From an uncultured Colwellia sp. (GTDB lineage: Bacteria > Pseudomonadota > Gammaproteobacteria > Enterobacterales > Alteromonadaceae), in NCBI GenBank assembly GCA_913058245.1, contig CAJXQJ010000011.1:1-64000 (forward strand): a stretch of 64,000 bases of DNA. Reading direction: 5' to 3'. Of this stretch, positions 15,728 to 63,961 are shown piece by piece (position 1 is the stretch's first letter; each line of letters starts with the position of its first letter). The notes beneath the pieces were generated by a model. That model was not told the DNA's origin and did not search any database. It saw only the letters and a list, made by a program, of their open reading frames with translations. Position numbers and translations under genes: made by a program.

Positions 15728-16644
15728 TATTTTGCTCCTTGAATATTTTGCGTTACTTTTTCCATGCCTTGGAAAAAACCTTCAAGCTTGGCGACATCGC
15801 TTGGTACAATTGATACATCGGCAGTTTTAAGGATCTGACCCGTTTGGCCAATAAATTGTTCGAGTAAGCGCATTTTTATGGCTTGATCACCACTAGGCAG
15901 TGCCGCAGCTTTAGCAATTAAATTAATACCTTCCGCTGATGCCTGTGTCAGAATTTCAATTTCCTGAGCACGTCCATGAGCTTCGTTAATTTGTTTTTGT
16001 TTGTCACCTTCAGATAAATTAATAGCTTCTTGACGTTCACCTTCTGATAAGTTGATTGTCGACTCCTTTTCAGCCTCAGCTAAGGTAATTTCAGCACGTT
16101 TTTGACGTTCTGCTTCCATTTGCTTTTCTAAGGTATGAATTACGTTTTCTGATGGCGTAATATTGCGCACCTCATAACGTAATACTTTTATTCCCCAAGG
16201 ATCTGAGGCTTTATCAATTTCACGAACAATAGTTTCATTGAGCGTTTCGCGTTCAGAGAAAGTTTGGCTTAAATTTAATTTACCAATTTCCGAACGCATT
16301 GTGGTTTGCGCTAAATTGATGCTGGCGCGACGATAGTCTTCAATACCGTAACTTGCTTTCGCACCATCCATTACTTGAATATACACTAAGCCATCCACAC
16401 TTATTTGAATGTTGTCACGTGAAATACAGCTTTGTGCGGGAATATCTAATACCTGTTCTCGGGTTTCGTGACGATAAGCCACACGGTCAAAAAATGGAAT
16501 GAGAAAATGTAATCCGGGTTGCATTACCGCTCTAAATTTTCCGAGGCGCTCTATTACACAGACTTCTTTCATTTGTACTATTAGTACTAGCTTTACAACG
16601 ATAAACAGTAAAGCGAGAAAGACAAAAGTCACAGTCGCTAACAT
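15727..16644 (-). CDS. SPFH-domain membrane protein (stomatin/QmcA-like), first copy
   Basis: 305 residues with the same architecture as its downstream neighbour: N-terminal membrane helix, SPFH domain (VIERLGKFRAVMQPGLHFL) and a coiled coil with three consecutive INLSEG repeats. AGGAG stands 7 bases before the ATG. The two SPFH proteins look like a tandem duplication and could form mixed oligomers. Together with the NfeD gene upstream they make the classic NfeD-SPFH operon. The role in membrane quality control is known for the family but not shown here. Confidence 0.9.
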   Translation of the reverse strand: MLATVTFVFLALLFIVVKLVLIVQMKEVCVIERLGKFRAVMQPGLHFLIPFFDRVAYRHETREQVLDIPAQSCISRDNIQISVDGLVYIQVMDGAKASYGIEDYRRASINLAQTTMRSEIGKLNLSQTFSERETLNETIVREIDKASDPWGIKVLRYEVRNITPSENVIHTLEKQMEAERQKRAEITLAEAEKESTINLSEGERQEAINLSEGDKQKQINEAHGRAQEIEILTQASAEGINLIAKAAALPSGDQAIKMRLLEQFIGQTGQILKTADVSIVPSDVAKLEGFFQGMEKVTQNIQGAK

Positions 16645-36436: not shown

Positions 36437-36682
36437 AAATAATTGTCATATAGAAAGTAAGTGTTGCCTTATTTTACTGTTAAATTAACTGATGCCAAGC
36501 GAGAAAATTGTTTGAAACGATTATTTATTTCATAAAACCCGTAATTGTTTATTTTTTTAGCGATATTTATTGCCATGCTGGTTGTGATCCTATAATATTC
36601 GCCTCCATTATTTTTAACTCGTATGGTGCTTGGCAGCAATAATGACTGATCAAGTGGCGATACGGCCTTAACAGAGGTTCCC

Positions 36683-48528: not shown

Positions 48529-48555
48529 ATTGCTGAGAAGTCTGCATAATAAACA
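48529..48555 (+). repeat. Remnant of the right end of module B
   Basis: ATTGCTGAGAAGTCTGCATAATAAAC resembles the right end of the repeated module B found in the cassette array (consensus ATTACTGAGACGTCTGCATAATAAGC) but lacks the GTTAGGC core. It precedes the DUF4870 gene as module B precedes several cassette genes. Confidence 0.6.
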
Positions 48556-48586
48556 ATTATATTTTTATTATTACAAGGATAGTTAT

Positions 48587-48949
48587 ATGTCTGAAAATAG
48601 AGAAGAATATTGGGGAATGCCCTTAAACACATACTGCATGATGATTCACTTAAGTCAATTGTCTAGTATCATCATTCCTGGGTTAGGCTTTATTTTACCT
48701 ATCGTTATGTGGGCAACGAATAAAGACAAACATGAAAGCATAGACCAACACGGAAAAACAACACTTAATTGGCTAATTAGCCTATTCATATACTCTATTG
48801 TGTGTGGGATTTTGACTTTTATATTTATAGGGATAATTGGCCTAATCGTATTGGCAATACTTAATTTCATCTTTGCGATAATTGCAGCGATCAAGGCAAA
48901 TGATAATCAACTATGGGCTTATCCTTTTAGCATAAGATTTATTAAATAA
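48587..48949 (+). CDS. DUF4870-domain membrane protein
   Basis: 120 residues. Words typical of DUF4870: MMIHLSQLSSIIIPGLGFILP and a following soluble stretch HGKTTLNWLISLFIY, with three hydrophobic segments overall. Small inner membrane protein of unknown function. CAAGGAT seven bases before the ATG at 48587 sets the start; the frame opens at 48530 inside the module B remnant. The 3' flank (48955-49060) contains a weak attC-like palindrome, so this may be an old cassette cut off from the main array. Confidence 0.8.
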   Translation: MSENREEYWGMPLNTYCMMIHLSQLSSIIIPGLGFILPIVMWATNKDKHESIDQHGKTTLNWLISLFIYSIVCGILTFIFIGIIGLIVLAILNFIFAIIAAIKANDNQLWAYPFSIRFIK

Positions 48950-53701: not shown

Positions 53702-53836
53702 CACTAATTCTGTGTTTTGTGCTCAATTTTCTCTTTTCTAGTTTCTAATACGTTGAAATTGTGTGATATTAATGTAAATCAAATGAGTTTTATGAGATGG
53801 GTTTTGCTGAGACGTCTCGATAATAAACGGTTAGGC
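53702..53836 (+). repeat. Module B, copy 1 (ends in collapsed attC)
   Basis: Starts CACTAATTC, shares the interior TTTTCTAGTTTCTAATRCGTTGAAAT-type words with the other copies, and ends CGATAAT-AAACG-GTTAGGC. It lies immediately upstream of the lipoprotein gene. The remaining 53574-53701 stretch is AT-rich with no gene seen. Confidence 0.8.
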
Positions 53837-56756: not shown

Positions 56757-57401
56757 ATGGTGAAAGTTCACCTAGTTGTAGCACATCCAGAGCAAGGTTC
56801 TTTTAATTTCGCGTTACACAAAACAGCAATAGAAGTTTTGAACAAAGAGAACATCAAGTTTGAAGTTTCAGACTTGTATGAACAAAACTTCAATCCTGTT
56901 GCGGGGAAAAATGATACTACTAATTTTCCAATTGAAGATATATTTCAATTGGCAAAAGCCCAAAGGTTAGCGCTTTCAAGTAACTCTTTTGCAAATAGCA
57001 TTAGTCAAGAGCAAGAAAAGTTGGCTTCATCCGATCTGCTAATTTTTCAATTTCCTTTATGGTGGTGGTCTTTTCCTGGCATATTAAAAGGCTGGATAGA
57101 TCGTGTTTTATCTTCCGGCTTTGCTTATGGTAACAATGCAATACTTAAGCCTAAAAAAATCATGTATTCAATTACAACTGGCGGTGCTAACTCTAAAGAG
57201 GAGTTAGAGTATTACCAAAATAAAATCGATGGATTATATCAAGATATATTTGGATTCATCGGTTGGGAAATACTACCTGCATTTATCGCTCATGGTGTGC
57301 AACGAAAAACAGAAGAAGAAAGGACGTTGTTACTCAAAAGTTATAAAGAGCACTTAGCTAAAAACGTAATTGTTGATAGTTTAGTGCTGTCAAATGCCTA
57401 A
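56757..57401 (+). CDS. NAD(P)H-dependent quinone-reductase-like flavoprotein
   Basis: 214 residues of the flavodoxin-fold NAD(P)H dehydrogenase (quinone) family, similar to MdaB/KefF/NQO. FMN/FAD-binding words: HLVVAHPEQGSFNFAL, FQFPLWWWSFPGILKGWIDRVL, GFAYG and TTGGANSKEEL. Likely two-electron reduction of quinones, a detoxification role. AAGGAGAT is so close to the ATG that the adjacent GTG (56760) may be the true start. Complete cassette with attC on both sides. Confidence 0.88.
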   Translation: MVKVHLVVAHPEQGSFNFALHKTAIEVLNKENIKFEVSDLYEQNFNPVAGKNDTTNFPIEDIFQLAKAQRLALSSNSFANSISQEQEKLASSDLLIFQFPLWWWSFPGILKGWIDRVLSSGFAYGNNAILKPKKIMYSITTGGANSKEELEYYQNKIDGLYQDIFGFIGWEILPAFIAHGVQRKTEEERTLLLKSYKEHLAKNVIVDSLVLSNA

Positions 57402-57496
57402 TAAGGGTTTTCAAGTCGAACAAATAACAGTTGGCTTTTGCTGCAGCGTCGCTTATTTTAGCCAGCAATTATTTGCCTCTTAACGAGGAGTCATTT
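57396..57496 (+). repeat. attC site with GTC core variant
   Basis: From GCCTAAT to GTCATTT (one change from GTTATTT). Middle arms CAGTTGGCTTTTGCTGC and TTATTTTAGCCAGC. Module A begins directly after the core. Confidence 0.75.
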
Positions 57497-57620
57497 GGCC
57501 TTACTTACTAAAATGACTGCTGGATTGGACTGATTTAGCTAAATTCATAGTCTCCAAGATTACAAGGTGTACTAATGGTGTACTTTTGATTTTTTCAAAT
57601 GTTTGGTTGTACTTCTTTAG
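57497..57620 (+). repeat. Module A, copy 1
   Basis: Begins GGCCTTACTTACTAAAATGA, continues through TGCTGGATTGGACTGATT, and carries the words GTGTACT / GTGTACT / GTTGTACT around TTGATTTTTTCAAA. It starts exactly at an attC core boundary. Confidence 0.85.
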
Positions 57621-57646
57621 GTCTTATATTCAAATTAGTATTAATT

Positions 57647-57783
57647 CTCACTAATTCCGCGTTTTATGCTTCATTTAGTCTTTTCTAGTTTCTAATGCAT
57701 TGAAATTATGTGATATTAATGTCAATTAAATGAATTTTATGGGGCGGGAATTACTGAGACGTCTGCATAATAAGCTGTTAGGC
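57647..57783 (+). repeat. Module B, copy 2 (ends in collapsed attC)
   Basis: Left end CTCACTAATTCCGC is an imperfect inverted copy of the right-end GCGGGAATTACTGAG. The copy ends GCATAAT-AAGCT-GTTAGGC: an inverse core and a core only five bases apart. It lies just before the GNAT gene. Confidence 0.85.
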
Positions 57784-57804: not shown

Positions 57805-58254
57805 ATGGCAATTAGCTTGAGAGAAGTTACTAAAGATAATTGGGAAGATATTATCTTGCTAGAAATCACAAAAGAACAAGAAGAGTTCGTCGCTTTAAAT
57901 GCAGAATCAATTGCAGGTTCTAAGTTTAACGAACACTATGTTAATCGAGCAATCTATTTCAATGAAGAACCAGTTGGTTTTATCCAGTACTTTCCTAACT
58001 ACGAAGATGAAAAACCAAATGAAATTTACATTGATCAATTTATGATCGATGTGCCGCATCAAGGAAAAGGTTATGGCACGAAAGCAATTAAGTTAGCTCT
58101 CGATGAAATCAAGCTTAGAGAAGATTGTAAAGCTATTTCAATATGCTACGTAGAAGGGCATGATGTAATGAAAGGCTTTTTTGAGCGCTTTAATTTTAGT
58201 GTTGTTGAACAAGATGAGTTTGATGAAACTATCATGGTGCTAAATGTTGCCTAA
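57805..58254 (+). CDS. GNAT-family N-acetyltransferase
   Basis: 149 residues from the ATG at 57805; AAGGAG is 12 bases upstream, a little far. The frame is open to 57730 through module B, which would add an implausible MNFMGRELLRRLHNK head. GNAT fold: YFNEEPVGFIQYFP, then QFMIDVPHQGKGYGTKAIKLAL (acetyl-CoA loop GKGYGT) and a C-terminal VEGHDVMKGFFERFNF. Substrate unknown; polyamine or antibiotic acetylation are possibilities. Cassette gene whose stop lies in the next attC. Confidence 0.88.
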   Translation: MAISLREVTKDNWEDIILLEITKEQEEFVALNAESIAGSKFNEHYVNRAIYFNEEPVGFIQYFPNYEDEKPNEIYIDQFMIDVPHQGKGYGTKAIKLALDEIKLREDCKAISICYVEGHDVMKGFFERFNFSVVEQDEFDETIMVLNVA

Positions 58255-58350
58255 CAAGGGTTTTCAAGTCAGACAAATTACAGTTGGCTAGGCTTCGCTT
58301 CGCTGCACATTTTAGCCAAACATTATCAGCCCCTTAACAGGGCGTTATAA
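58249..58350 (+). repeat. attC site, canonical
   Basis: 102 bases from GCCTAAC to GTTATAA, with CAGTTGGCTAGGC...TTTTAGCCAAAC arms and CAGCCCC before GGGC-core. Confidence 0.9.
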
Positions 58351-58366
58351 ATACAAGGAAGGGTCA

Positions 58367-59374: not shown

Positions 59375-59385
59375 TTGCATCGCAC

Positions 59386-59485
59386 ACTTAACAAGACAAT
59401 CATACGGATACGCAACAGTTGGCTCAGTTCCACTCCGTTTCACAGTTTAGCCAAGCATTATCAGCCCCTTAATGGGGCGTTATTT
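59386..59485 (+). repeat. attC site, canonical
   Basis: 100 bases from ACTTAAC to GTTATTT, with CAGTTGGCTCAG...TTTAGCCAAGC and CAGCCCCTTAATGGGGC arms. Module A starts right after it. Confidence 0.9.
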
Positions 59486-59487
59486 TG

Positions 59488-59630
59488 GGCCTTACTTACT
59501 AAACTGATTGCTGGATTGGACTGATTTTAGCTAAGCATATAGCCTCTAATGCAGCAAGGTGTACTAATGGTGTACTTTTGATTTTTTCAAATGCTCGGGT
59601 GTACTTCTTTAATTTTTATATTTATATTGC
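59488..59630 (+). repeat. Module A, copy 2
   Basis: GGCCTTACTTACTAAACTGA and the following 120 bases closely match copies 1 and 4, including the GTGTACT words. It is followed by TATTGCTAAGAAATCATAGCAT, which may be a decayed module B right end. The further 190 bases to the GGDEF gene are AT-rich with no gene seen. Confidence 0.85.
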
Positions 59631-59826
59631 TAAGAAATCATAGCATGACCAAATATGTAAAATTTTTTTCAATACTAATTATAAAAGAGCTAAATTTATT
59701 CTAAATATCATTTGAAACAATCCACCTCCTTTCTTATTTGCTTGGAATTATTCTTGGCTAGATAAGTGCAGATTATTACTACATAATGGAAATCTTCCAA
59801 AATAACTCATAACCAAAGGACTTTTA

Positions 59827-60993
59827 TTGCAGCTTCATGACATAACTCTAATGTTAACTTTATCTTTAGCGTCTTTGGTTGGTGCTATTATCCTAGGAAT
59901 TTTATCGCAGTTGAGTCGAGCCGTTGAAGGTTCGAAATATTGGGCAATTGGTCTTGCATTATTATCTGTCGCTTATGGCTCTCACTTATTTCTACAGGGA
60001 ATGCCATTATCCATAAGAGCCAATAGCCATAATTTATGCTTGGTCTTGGGGCATGCTTGCTGGTTGATAGGAGCATATAAATTTGTTGGACGACCATTAA
60101 CAACTCAGCAAAAAACTTGGCTTATTTTTCCTGTCGTTGTTCTTATTCTAACTTTCACCATGATATGGCCAGCAATAGAATATCGGATTGCTATTATCGG
60201 CATTTGGTTGATTGTAGTTCGTCTGCACTATGCGTGGATATTGTTTCGATACGCTCATAATAATCGAATAGAAAAGTTGGCAGCCAACATTGCCGCTGTC
60301 GTAGCGTTAGCAGAAGTTTGCTTTACAATTATTTATACTATTTACGGTTCGCTCGGACATCTATCTTTTGTGGGTACGCAAATGAGTTGGGTATCGGGCA
60401 TAACGTGGTTAGGTGCTTTATTAGGTATAACTATTAGTACGCCACTATTAATGTTGCTAAGTGTGGGAAGATTGGTTGAAAAGCTCGATTTTGCAGCCCA
60501 TCATGATCCATTAACAAAGTTGCTAAATCGTAGAGGTTTCTTTGCTCAAGCTAAACCAATACTGTCAATTTCGAAACGCAATAAGCAGCTGGTCACCGTG
60601 ATGATGTTAGATATTGACCATTTTAAACGTATTAATGATCAGTACGGCCATGCGATAGGGGACGACGTATTAGAAATATTTTCAGGTACATTACGAAGTA
60701 CACTACGTGAAACTGATATAGTTGCTCGTTGGGGTGGAGAAGAGGCGTGCATATTATTGCACGACGCCAATGCTGATTATGCAATTACGGTTGCAAATCG
60801 TATAAGGGAGTCTTTCAGCTTTGCTTGCAAAGCAACGTCAGCTTTTGATAACGCTATTACGCTAAGTGTAGGTATCGCCAGTAAACAACTATCAGATGTT
60901 GATACGTTTGATTTTATTCAAGCCGATGCAGACAAAGCATTATACAGTGCTAAAAGCCAAGGTAGAAACTGTGTATATGTAAGTGCTATATAG
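59827..60993 (+). CDS. Membrane diguanylate cyclase (GGDEF)
   Basis: 388 residues. Seven or so membrane segments (about 5-215), then a GGDEF domain with an intact signature WGGEEACILL and a product-inhibition I-site RETD five residues before it, so it should make c-di-GMP. Start is probably TTG at 59827 with AAAGGA six bases upstream. Large for a cassette gene, and it has no attC of its own at the 3' end: module A copies flank it on both sides instead. Confidence 0.88.
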   Translation: MQLHDITLMLTLSLASLVGAIILGILSQLSRAVEGSKYWAIGLALLSVAYGSHLFLQGMPLSIRANSHNLCLVLGHACWLIGAYKFVGRPLTTQQKTWLIFPVVVLILTFTMIWPAIEYRIAIIGIWLIVVRLHYAWILFRYAHNNRIEKLAANIAAVVALAEVCFTIIYTIYGSLGHLSFVGTQMSWVSGITWLGALLGITISTPLLMLLSVGRLVEKLDFAAHHDPLTKLLNRRGFFAQAKPILSISKRNKQLVTVMMLDIDHFKRINDQYGHAIGDDVLEIFSGTLRSTLRETDIVARWGGEEACILLHDANADYAITVANRIRESFSFACKATSAFDNAITLSVGIASKQLSDVDTFDFIQADADKALYSAKSQGRNCVYVSAI

Positions 60994-61017
60994 CGTTTCT
61001 GAGCTTTTGTATCGTTA

Positions 61018-61147
61018 ATGATTTCAATTGCTGGATTGAACTGATTTTATCTAAATACAAAACCCTCAAGGCAACAACGCGTGCTAAAGGTGTACATTTG
61101 ATTTTTTCAAATGTTCGAGTGTACTTCTTTAATTTTTATATTCATAT
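61018..61147 (+). repeat. Module A, copy 3 (diverged)
   Basis: TTTCAATTGCTGGATTGAACTG onward; the first 20 bases of the module are changed or lost. GTGTACATTTGATTTTTTCAAA and GTGTACTTCTTTAATTTTTA are kept. Confidence 0.8.
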
Positions 61148-61179
61148 TACTGAGACGTCTGCATAATAAGCGGTTAGGG
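61146..61179 (+). repeat. Right end of module B (collapsed attC), copy 3
   Basis: ATTACTGAGACGTCTGCATA then ATAAGCG-GTTAGGG, fused directly to module A with the left 100 bases of module B absent. It lies just upstream of the NAD(P)-binding gene. Confidence 0.85.
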
Positions 61180-61890: not shown

Positions 61891-61902
61891 AGTTAAACAA
61901 AG

Positions 61903-62002
61903 CTCTAACAAGCTGTTCAAGCGGGACAAATAACAGCTGGCTGGTTCCGCTTCGCTTCACATTTTAGCCAATTACAATTTGCCCCTTAATAGTACGTTAG
62001 TT
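61903..62002 (+). repeat. attC site, canonical
   Basis: 100 bases from CTCTAAC to GTTAGTT; AAGCTGTTCAAGCGGGACAA left arm, TGGCTGGTTCCGC...TTTTAGCCA centre. Confidence 0.9.
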
Positions 62003-62018
62003 GCCAAAGGAGAATCTG

Positions 62019-62366
62019 GTGAACGTTGATGATATTAGAGTTTTCATCCCTAGTAAGAATTACGAAATATCTAAGTCCTTTTACCAAGCTTTAGGCTTTA
62101 AAATGGATTATGTAACTGATGATTTATCTTTATTCGAAAATGGCGAATGTACGTTTTTTCTACAACGGTTTTATAACGAAGAGTTAGCAAAAAATTTAAT
62201 GCTTCAACTTTCAATTTTAGATATAAATGAAGCCTTTGAGGTTATTTCAAGTCTTGATGGTTTCGACATAAAGTATGAACCAATTAAAATTGAGCATTGG
62301 GGGAAAGTTGTTTATCTGTGGGGGCCATCAGGAGAACTTTGGCATGTCACAGAATTTAGCAACTAA
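62019..62366 (+). CDS. VOC-family (glyoxalase-fold) protein
   Basis: 115 residues from the GTG at 62019 (AAAGGAGA six bases upstream); the frame opens in the attC core. One vicinal-oxygen-chelate domain: VNVDDIRVFIPSKNYEISKSFYQALGF, CTFFLQRFYNEELAKN, and GPSGELWHVTEF at the end with a metal-ligand-like His/Glu pair. Could be a lyase-like enzyme or a drug-binding protein of the bleomycin-resistance type. Stop codon lies in the next attC. Confidence 0.85.
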   Translation: MNVDDIRVFIPSKNYEISKSFYQALGFKMDYVTDDLSLFENGECTFFLQRFYNEELAKNLMLQLSILDINEAFEVISSLDGFDIKYEPIKIEHWGKVVYLWGPSGELWHVTEFSN

Positions 62367-62458
62367 TAAGCTGTTCAAACGTAAAAATACAGCAGGCTGT
62401 TTTCACTCCGTTCAACATTTTAGCCAACTACAATTCTCCCCTTAACAGGGCGTTATGT
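62361..62458 (+). repeat. attC site, canonical
   Basis: 98 bases from AACTAAT to GTTATGT; AAGCTGTTCAAACG left arm, CAGGCTGTTTTCACTCC...TTTTAGCCAAC centre. Confidence 0.88.
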
Positions 62459-62492
62459 TACTTAACTCTTCATTATTTCAATCGAGGCACTT

Positions 62493-63035: not shown

Positions 63036-63041
63036 TTAACA

Positions 63042-63109
63042 ATATAACAAACTAATTAACAGGACAAAAAGCTAGAGAGCTATTTTTGTCCTTTATTAGG
63101 GCGTTAGCA
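63042..63109 (+). repeat. attC site, short form (68 bp)
   Basis: From ATATAAC to GTTAGCA with AGGACAAAAA / TTTTTGTCCT arms around CTAGAGAG. About 30 bases shorter than the others; the usual TTCGCTTC...TTTTAGCC centre is missing. Confidence 0.85.
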
Positions 63110-63122
63110 GTACAGGAAAGTT

Positions 63123-63491
63123 ATGTATCAAGGAAGCTGCCTCTGTGGCAAAATTAAATATCGATTACTAAGTAAGCCGAAAAAGGTTACGAGTTGTCAT
63201 TGTACTATGTGTCAAAAGCAACATGGTGCAGCTTTTGCAACATACGGAAGCCTTCTAAAAGCAGATTTAGAGTATGTTGTTGGAAAACGGCTTTTAAAAT
63301 CTTATAACTCATCAGGGACAATTAAACGCAAATTTTGTGGCGAGTGTGGTTCTAATATTGAGTGGTCTGGAAGCTCTAATTTTCCAGACTGGACATCAGT
63401 TACGCTATCAACCTTGGATACACCTTTTTATCCTGAAGAAATTTCGAATATCTATACTGAAACAAGGCAGTGTTGGCTAAAATACAGCTAA
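63123..63491 (+). CDS. GFA-family (glutathione-dependent formaldehyde-activating fold) protein
   Basis: 122 residues with the GFA zinc-binding cysteine pattern: SCLCGKIKY, CHCTMCQKQHGAAFATY and FCGECGSNIEW. The family includes S-(hydroxymethyl)glutathione synthase, but most members are uncharacterised, so the reaction is not assigned. AGGAAAG upstream of the ATG. The stop lies inside the next attC. Confidence 0.88.
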   Translation: MYQGSCLCGKIKYRLLSKPKKVTSCHCTMCQKQHGAAFATYGSLLKADLEYVVGKRLLKSYNSSGTIKRKFCGECGSNIEWSGSSNFPDWTSVTLSTLDTPFYPEEISNIYTETRQCWLKYS

Positions 63492-63585
63492 CAAGCAAGT
63501 TAATTAGGATACGTAAAGTTGGCTGCGTTCTGCTTTGTTACACATTTCAGCCAGCGTTGCTTAGCCTATCATTTGGGCGTTATTT
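63486..63585 (+). repeat. attC site, canonical
   Basis: 100 bases from AGCTAAC to GTTATTT, with AAAGTTGGCTGCG...TTTCAGCCAGC centre. Module A starts two bases after the core. Confidence 0.88.
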
Positions 63586-63587
63586 TT

Positions 63588-63715
63588 GGCCTTACTTACT
63601 AAACTGATTGCTGGATTGGACTGATTTTAGCTAAACATATAGCCTCTAATGCAGCAAGGTGTACTAATGGTGTACTTTTGATTTTTCAAAGGTTCGGGTG
63701 TACTTCGTTAATTCA
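63588..63715 (+). repeat. Module A, copy 4
   Basis: Near-identical to copy 2 (GGCCTTACTTACTAAACTGA through GTGTACTAATGGTGTACTTT) up to GTGTACTTCGTTAATTC. Between this and module B lie about 100 AT-rich bases with no gene seen. Confidence 0.88.
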
Positions 63716-63821
63716 TATTAGTGAGAAGTATTAGTAAAGACCAGAGAACAGTGTTTTATTTATTTAATCTTTTGATATTAAATATAAAGGCGTCTCTTTA
63801 AATGTTCCGTATTATTGCGAA

Positions 63822-63961
63822 CTCTCACTAATTCGGTCTTTTGTGCTTCATTTAGTCTTTTCTAGTTTCTAATGCTTTGAAATTGTGTGACATTAATGTC
63901 AATCAAATGAATTTTATGGGGCGGGAATTACTGAGACGTCTACATAACAAGCTAGTTATAT
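63822..63961 (+). repeat. Module B, copy 4 (ends in collapsed attC)
   Basis: CTCTCACTAATTCGG to ACATAAC-AAGCTA-GTTATAT. Here the inverse core is a perfect RYYYAAC-type box. Whatever follows lies beyond 64 kb, so the array is cut by the window edge. Confidence 0.85.

Follow-up and report, generated by a model that had tools for sequence, protein, structure and literature searches.

An integrase-less attI platform dispersed in Colwellia and its relatives, a probable landing site for integron cassettes

The composite repeat described here lies at positions 57497–57783 of a 64,000-nucleotide stretch of an uncultured Colwellia sp. (the window; positions 1 to 64,000 of contig CAJXQJ010000011.1, assembly GCA_913058245.1). 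The repeat has two parts, module A and module B. By sequence homology, module B is attI, the docking site for integron cassettes, and the two modules are the left and right parts of a single platform without an integrase gene, composed of a left flank, three palindromes (S1, S2, and S3), and an attI core of the form G^TTA. Copies of this platform are scattered over the genomes of related bacteria, and they are probably non-autonomous sites at which cassettes land through an integrase supplied in trans. Genomes compared are labeled G### (G000 is the genome of the window), fetched stretches L###, and contigs C# (the window lies on C11). The relatives were searched as a set of 98 genomes, G000 counted in.

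A preliminary description of the window had reported the recurrence of modules A and B. A BLASTN search of 57497–57783 against its own genome recovered the copies it named, with module A at 59488, 61029, and 63588, module B at 53702 and 63820, and a fragment at 61146 (E 3e-50 to 1e-8), and the repeat families D2 and D3 of a self-comparison of the window concur with these copies. An extra A/B pair is present just past the window end (C11:65056 and 65321), and partial matches also occur on contigs C4 and C2. The A copy that had been placed at 61018 is a real match, but it does not start at an attC; it lies downstream of a gene for a diguanylate cyclase, and its alignment omits the first 21 bases. 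Within the repeat is a palindrome that occurs three times in the window at three or fewer mismatches, versus no occurrence expected from 100 shuffles. The window array contains four attI cores, two of which sit in platforms shortened between palindromes. Its features are as follows, where R1 is an attC covariance model built from 16 attCs and run on 41 stretches, and a caret marks the crossover point.

48529–48562, + strand: degenerate right-end fragment (S3 and core); a weak BLASTN match of 24 bp (E 0.001–0.003) that could be chance, near the start of a small open reading frame (ORF; listed 48530–48949) and 5.7 kb from the next attC
53702–53830, + strand: solo attI (module B), the first full one in the array, 83% identical to the query; crossover 53830^53831; S1 and S2 upstream are degenerate, the next attC is 471 bp downstream, and none was found upstream
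57395–57497, + strand: attC immediately preceding module A (R1, 61 bits)
57491–57641, + strand: module A, the left part of the platform (BLASTN, alignment, and junction comparison)
57642–57777, + strand: module B, an attI without the stretch between S1 and S2; S3 57750–57771; crossover 57777^57778
57805–58254, + strand: GNAT acetyltransferase cassette gene (Pfam PF00583); the ORF is listed from 57730, an ATG follows AAGGAG at 57805, and the next attC is 58248–58351
59480–59628, + strand: module A copy right after the attC at 59385–59486 (BLASTN, attC model, and alignment), followed by a diguanylate cyclase gene (59827–60993) and not by an attI core
61029–61173, + strand: second A copy, 5' truncated, with S1 joined to S3 and an attI core; crossover 61173^61174; it follows the diguanylate cyclase gene, and the unit ends in attI instead of attC
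61902–62003, + strand: attC (covariance model, 104.8 bits)
62360–62459, 63041–63110, and 63485–63586, + strand: further attCs (covariance model)
63580–63955, + strand: most complete platform, with module A (63588–63718), S1 (approximately 63717–63738), S2 (63811–63832), the attI block, S3, and crossover 63955^63956

Alignment to the complete copy places the lost segment between S1 and S2 in 57491–57777, and between S1 and S3 in 61029–61173. Thirteen matches to the attC model occur in the window between 54307 and 63586, every one of them on the + strand. No match to either of two integron integrase lineages, IntI_a (G000) and IntI_b (G001), which are 40% identical, was found anywhere in the window, and the array is not a complete integron. 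Having two or more attC sites without a nearby integrase gene, it is a CALIN (cluster of attC sites lacking an integron integrase).

The identification of module B as attI comes from copies that stand beside an integrase gene. One match to the repeat in the same genome (C4:3565–3656) lies approximately 250 bp from an integron integrase gene, intI_a (C4:3910–4851). Its product contains the Pfam Phage_integrase domain and an N-terminal SAM-like domain, and it scores above the cut-off of TIGR02249. From intI_a (divergent), this locus (L049) runs through an intergenic stretch in which a palindrome like ATTACTGAGAnnTCTCAGTAAT is present three times, then the core AAGCTG^TTATATG, one cassette gene, and successive attCs of approximately 102 bp. 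The sequence CTGTATTTGTATACAG (CTGT-N8-ACAG) at L049:3863–3878, just upstream of intI_a, is a LexA-box-like motif. The same order of intI_a, its attI (attI_a), and cassette is present in G012 (L067), in two platforms of G056 (L144 and L145), and, with a truncated intI, in G007. The cores are of the G^TTRRRY-like type (G|TTAGGC, G|TTATAT, G|TTATAA, and G|TTAGGG), and the sequences diverge directly after them. The GTTAGGC-like ends previously ascribed to module B are present, but they are attI and not attC cores.

The two G056 platforms (L144:8004–9366 and L145:8089–9451) are both complete, 1,363 bp long, and 99.85% identical. They occupy two chromosomal sites and differ in sequence past the core. 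A complete integron platform could have been duplicated recently in this genome, or the two copies could have been homogenized by gene conversion.

The palindromes were compared among 50 attI copies from 41 stretches picked among the BLASTN matches of the 287-bp query; copies of the same array are not independent. With six short or degenerate copies omitted, the median number of mismatches over 44 copies was 5, 3, and 4 for S1, S2, and S3, respectively, versus 9.2–9.9 in shuffles. Five or fewer mismatches were found in 24 copies for S1, 37 for S2, and 33 for S3. A scan for S palindromes in 20 stretches holding other integrases or further attI copies gave three matches at five or fewer mismatches: two isolated ones at five, and one at two in L106, which is an attI_a copy. 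L104, which holds an attI_a copy of G002, had no match at this threshold. A motif scan of named genomes yielded 24 stretches from records of Colwellia, Thalassotalea, Pseudocolwellia, Colwelliaceae, and Alteromonadaceae; C. psychrerythraea GAB14E and Colwellia sp. MB02u-6 have the motif.

The left part of the platform is of two kinds. In many solo copies the left flank matches the sequence just past the 3' end of intI_a (that of G012, and of G007 with its broken intI) and then runs straight into S1, so that the solo unit looks like a platform after deletion of the integrase gene. Copies in G000 and G015 have a different left part, which is module A; its likeness in G019 and L081 is weak. Module A was also considered as a separate mobile element, but its alignment to the left portion of the G015 attI copies led to the rejection of this reading.

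Module A starts right behind four different attCs in G000. Three of them are in the window (57490|57491, 59479|59480, and 63579|63580), as had been noted before, and the fourth is at C11:65047; TTATTT or TCATTT follows the cut. The units 57491–57777 and 63580–63955 are bounded by an attC G|TT on the left (degenerate GAG|TCA at 57490) and an attI G|TT on the right, and these junctions agree with the earlier proposal of a unit that acts as a cassette without a gene. At the right junction, agreement between copies is 0.77 over the final 36 bases of the unit and drops to 0.55, 0.48, and 0.46 over the three blocks that follow (with the 61178 copy, omitted from this profile, 0.75 then 0.55). Such a pattern is expected from an integrase inserting at G^TT, although the left junction may alternatively have arisen by recombination between similar attCs.

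The platform is widely dispersed. The preliminary description had asked whether copies occur outside cassette arrays. Copies are present outside the window array: the 287-bp query matched 28 of the 98 genomes at E ≤ 0.001 (G000 included), mostly over the last ~100 bp and in some only as short or weak matches. A census with a sequence model of the right 129 bp (R2, from 38 hand-chosen copies) gave matches in 30 of the 98 genomes at E ≤ 0.001. Only listed rows at E ≤ 1e-10 were counted, and all counts from them are lower bounds: at least 81 matches in 23 genomes of Colwellia, Thalassotalea, and relatives, with none of those 81 from another family of the order. Among these listed matches, 5 are linked to (within 2 kb of) an integron integrase and 76 are not; the list used for linkage has 34 entries, integron integrases and fragments, with phage-type recombinases omitted. 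The highest count listed for one genome is at least eight. Genomes assembled as one contig have at least six (G001), three (G006, G008, and G009), or one (G004 and G028), and all 17 of these are solo; one-contig G056 has at least two, both integrase-linked. A distant BLASTN search of the query against a plasmid collection gave no match.

These copies usually head an attC array. A same-strand attC lies within 2.5 kb downstream in 44 of the 50 copies, and within 2.5 kb upstream in 9 of the 50. Of the six exceptions, L053 and the window copy at 63820 are at or near the end of their sequence (the adjoining L047 has an attC behind the latter), the next attC is farther off in L060_14069 and the window fragment at 48529, and none was found behind L056 and L065.

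The chromosomal positions are mostly unrelated. A translated search (E ≤ 1e-15) was used to compare the left flanks of 49 copies with one another, setting aside overlapping flanks of the same locus and the intI-containing pair of G000 and G012. One site was clearly orthologous between genomes, that of G015 and G000 at alr-dusA, and G013 has this site in common by synteny. Weaker matches between genomes reflect gene similarity (G009 to a nuclease gene of the window, G015 to its cassettes). The alr-dusA interval, the location of the window array, contains a single attC among 13 relatives, in G013, and none in 11 of the 13; the G015 stretch ends short of its array, which is in L081. In G013 attI_a is followed by a GNAT gene whose product is 94% identical in amino acids to that of the window. 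Directly before dusA in G015 (L081:18276–19418) is an ORF for a phage-type tyrosine recombinase, named from its sequence by reading.

One site can be compared in its occupied and empty states. The genes yegD and ahpC are separated in G001 by an array that has attI at its head and three matched attCs; the ends of this insertion are imprecise by several hundred bases. On that side of yegD, no attI_a match lies within 1.5 kb in any of 16 relatives. In five of them (G003, G005, G010, G013, and G015) ahpC lies 102–161 bp from yegD, and in six only the next gene (RNase H-like) is found, 114–433 bp from yegD; G011 and G012 have a partial ahpC match, and G002, G014, and G019 have neither ahpC nor the next gene. 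With pdxY as the flank marker for a second empty site, no match at E ≤ 1e-60 was found in the other genomes of the genus among 32, and this comparison was uninformative.

A tree was constructed from the 38 copies of model R2, in which the G056 platforms are absent. A branch with support 95/99 parts 31 solo rows of 14 genomes from seven rows, three of them integrase-linked and four solo. The copies do not simply cluster by genome (for example, one G001 copy groups with G003 and G009). The joint separation of the 31 solo copies, together with the left flank joined directly to S1 that many of them share, suggests one or a few deletions of the integrase gene, followed by spread.

The course of events proposed here is that an integron platform lost its integrase gene and kept the attI landing site with S1, S2, S3, and the core G^TTA. 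The solo attI is dispersed in Colwellia and relatives, mostly at unrelated chromosomal sites and usually at the head of an attC array. Within the window, solo attIs punctuate the integrase-less array, each at the head of its own cassette run. Inside the array the platform has an attC on its left and a further cassette on its right, and the integrase cutting point marks both junctions, as expected of a gene-less cassette ending in attI. Cassettes would most likely be inserted at solo attIs by an integrase in trans, IntI_a where present and otherwise perhaps IntI_b, and one genome would thereby keep several acquisition points. The use of attI_a by IntI_b is a guess. A single covariance model fits attCs from integrons of either kind well, so a common cassette pool is likely. 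A wider proposal is put forward tentatively and rates somewhat below even odds: the solo attI may have proliferated, seeded arrays, and been passed on as an attI-ended cassette, to give an integron distributed over up to eight or more sites and served by one integrase in trans. Under that proposal it could be likened, with the same reserve, to transposons with a non-autonomous partner.

Several observations weigh against landing sites served in trans. Full-length IntI_a at 70% identity or more is limited to G000, G012, G056 (two), and G022, with integrases of 55–60% in several other genomes. A full IntI_a is present in only 3 of the 23 census genomes; in 17 the matches are limited to fragments of it or to integrases 39–46% identical to it, and G015, G040, and G055 have no IntI_a match at E ≤ 1e-20. 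Given this rarity, many copies may now be inactive. No S palindromes lie beside integrases of the IntI_b lineage, whose attI is of another type. S1 is poorly kept in 20 of the 44 copies, and a sigma-70 promoter scan of two copies gave no consensus-like promoter. The left ends differ between copies, and the left junction (agreement 0.69 before versus 0.82 after the cut) is less sharp than the right, because attCs resemble one another. Four solo copies group with the integrase-linked ones in the tree, which is compatible with separate losses of the integrase gene. The tree is unrooted, only 6 of its 35 inner branches are well supported, and L106 and L068 are long branches. Solo copies (e.g., in L053, L054, and L080) carry a left-end motif, TTTGTGCGCATTGCTGACATTAG, partly flanked by CTAATGT as an inverted repeat, and 8 of its 16 matches, found in 9 of 32 genomes, lie away from attIs listed in the census. 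The G000 assembly is 67% complete and in 30 contigs.

Integrase-gene decay is a usual explanation of CALINs. Applied here, each solo attI would be the remnant of a separate complete integron and would have no present function, and the truncated intI_a beside attI_a in G007, the intI_a-like fragments in G002, G036, and G050, the shortened or degenerate state of some copies, and the 20 of 23 census genomes that have no full IntI_a agree with this. Separate decay is nevertheless unlikely: the 31 solo copies split off together, and many copies share a left flank joined directly to S1; S2, S3, and the core are kept in most copies; the chromosomal positions are mostly unrelated; and at least eight copies are listed in one genome. 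A somewhat less doubtful possibility is that attI is a passenger of a ~310-bp element spread by an unrelated transposase or recombinase, in the manner of a miniature inverted-repeat transposable element (MITE). In many pairs of copies, homology breaks off around positions −308 to −314 relative to the core, close to GTGCGCATTGCTGACATTAG; the motif there is low-copy, with the other 8 of its 16 matches beside census-listed attIs, and the near-identical complete platforms at two G056 sites could be a product of such spread. Gene conversion could also explain the G056 pair, however. The left end varies, with a different left part in G000 and G015, and copies in the interior of the array have attC and attI cutting points as their boundaries. 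Inspection of the ends by eye showed neither a terminal inverted repeat nor a target duplication, and a search of the array for inverted pairs of 40 or more bases found none.

The preliminary description had suggested a promoter or regulatory RNA as the function of the repeat, and attI is a more specific role. If the unit were kept for driving the cassettes that follow it, with recombination secondary, the block TTTCTAAT...TTGAAATTATGGGATATTAAT, approximately 60–95 bp before the core, would be a candidate; it is among the best conserved columns of the 44 copies, and cassette genes follow closely. This block could be a non-consensus cassette promoter (Pc). As the main reason for conservation, promoter activity is quite improbable, since conservation reaches the palindromes and core, the two copies scanned contain no consensus promoter, and Rfam gave nothing at the repeat, its sole match in the window at gathering score being the L31 ribosomal protein leader (36620–36678, RF03157). 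The recurrence of A and B in order within one array had also raised the prospect of tandem duplication of neighboring cassettes, which as the sole source of the copies is refuted and scarcely credible. The flanking attCs and genes differ, and copies are present on other contigs and in other genomes. The 57497 and 63588 copies are 93% and 94% identical to a G015 copy at another locus, versus 91% to each other and 73–81% to the two other array copies compared.

Integrons are described with one attI near intI, and arrays without an integrase are often interpreted as products of decay or of stray insertion. MITEs are short non-coding derivatives that outnumber an autonomous copy. The solo attI is also short, non-coding, and more numerous than its autonomous form; unlike MITEs, it is a recombination site behind which genes collect, and by eye it has neither inverted ends nor a target duplication.

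Among known systems, the closest are the attI-ended (delta-attI) cassettes of class 1 and class 2 integrons, in which attI or part of it replaces attC and IntI1 carries out excision and insertion (PMC12901181). The diguanylate cyclase unit at 59480–61173 is alike, as is a G015 gene (L081:15605–16243) that is followed by an attI fragment (16230–16281) in place of attC and is a chromosomal counterpart of these cassettes. In those cassettes attI follows a gene inside a mobile integron (PMC12901181), whereas here it brings an upstream region, mostly without any gene preceding it in its unit, stands at the head of arrays, and occurs at scattered chromosomal positions. CALINs have been proposed to be degraded integrons (PMC9024848), and they are described as mobilizable in trans by a functional IntI and present at several chromosomal loci in Xanthomonas (PMC12444791). 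The arrays described here are likewise integrase-less but have a conserved attI at the head. Secondary insertion sites (attG), which are neither attC nor attI, also receive cassettes away from the integron (PMC12444791, PMC12901181); the site here copies a real attI. Cassettes ending in attI and CALINs are already known, and the dispersed solo attI repeat is apparently new, in that no report of it was found in the literature searched, which included parts of PMC12901181, PMC9024848, PMC12444791, PMC9229058, and PMC10127599 and to which most subscription papers were external.

If the proposal is correct, a dispersed and conserved attI would explain how integrase-less arrays start and stay usable, and a cell would have several acquisition points. 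The motif allows arrays now filed as CALINs to be re-examined, and service of attIs in trans by an integrase, as well as travel of attI as a cassette, become testable.

Two further observations concern genes near these arrays. In G040, a distant tyrosine recombinase (L060:13098–13877) starts approximately 100 bp behind a solo attI (14069–13978) on the same strand, and aligns along most of its length with IntI_a at 23% identity (E 3e-11) and with part of IntI_b at 40%. Directly to the right of the window array, before dusA, is a PtuA/PtuB (Septu) defense pair (L047:1870–3778, C11:65870–67778; PADLOC E 1e-134 and 1e-81).
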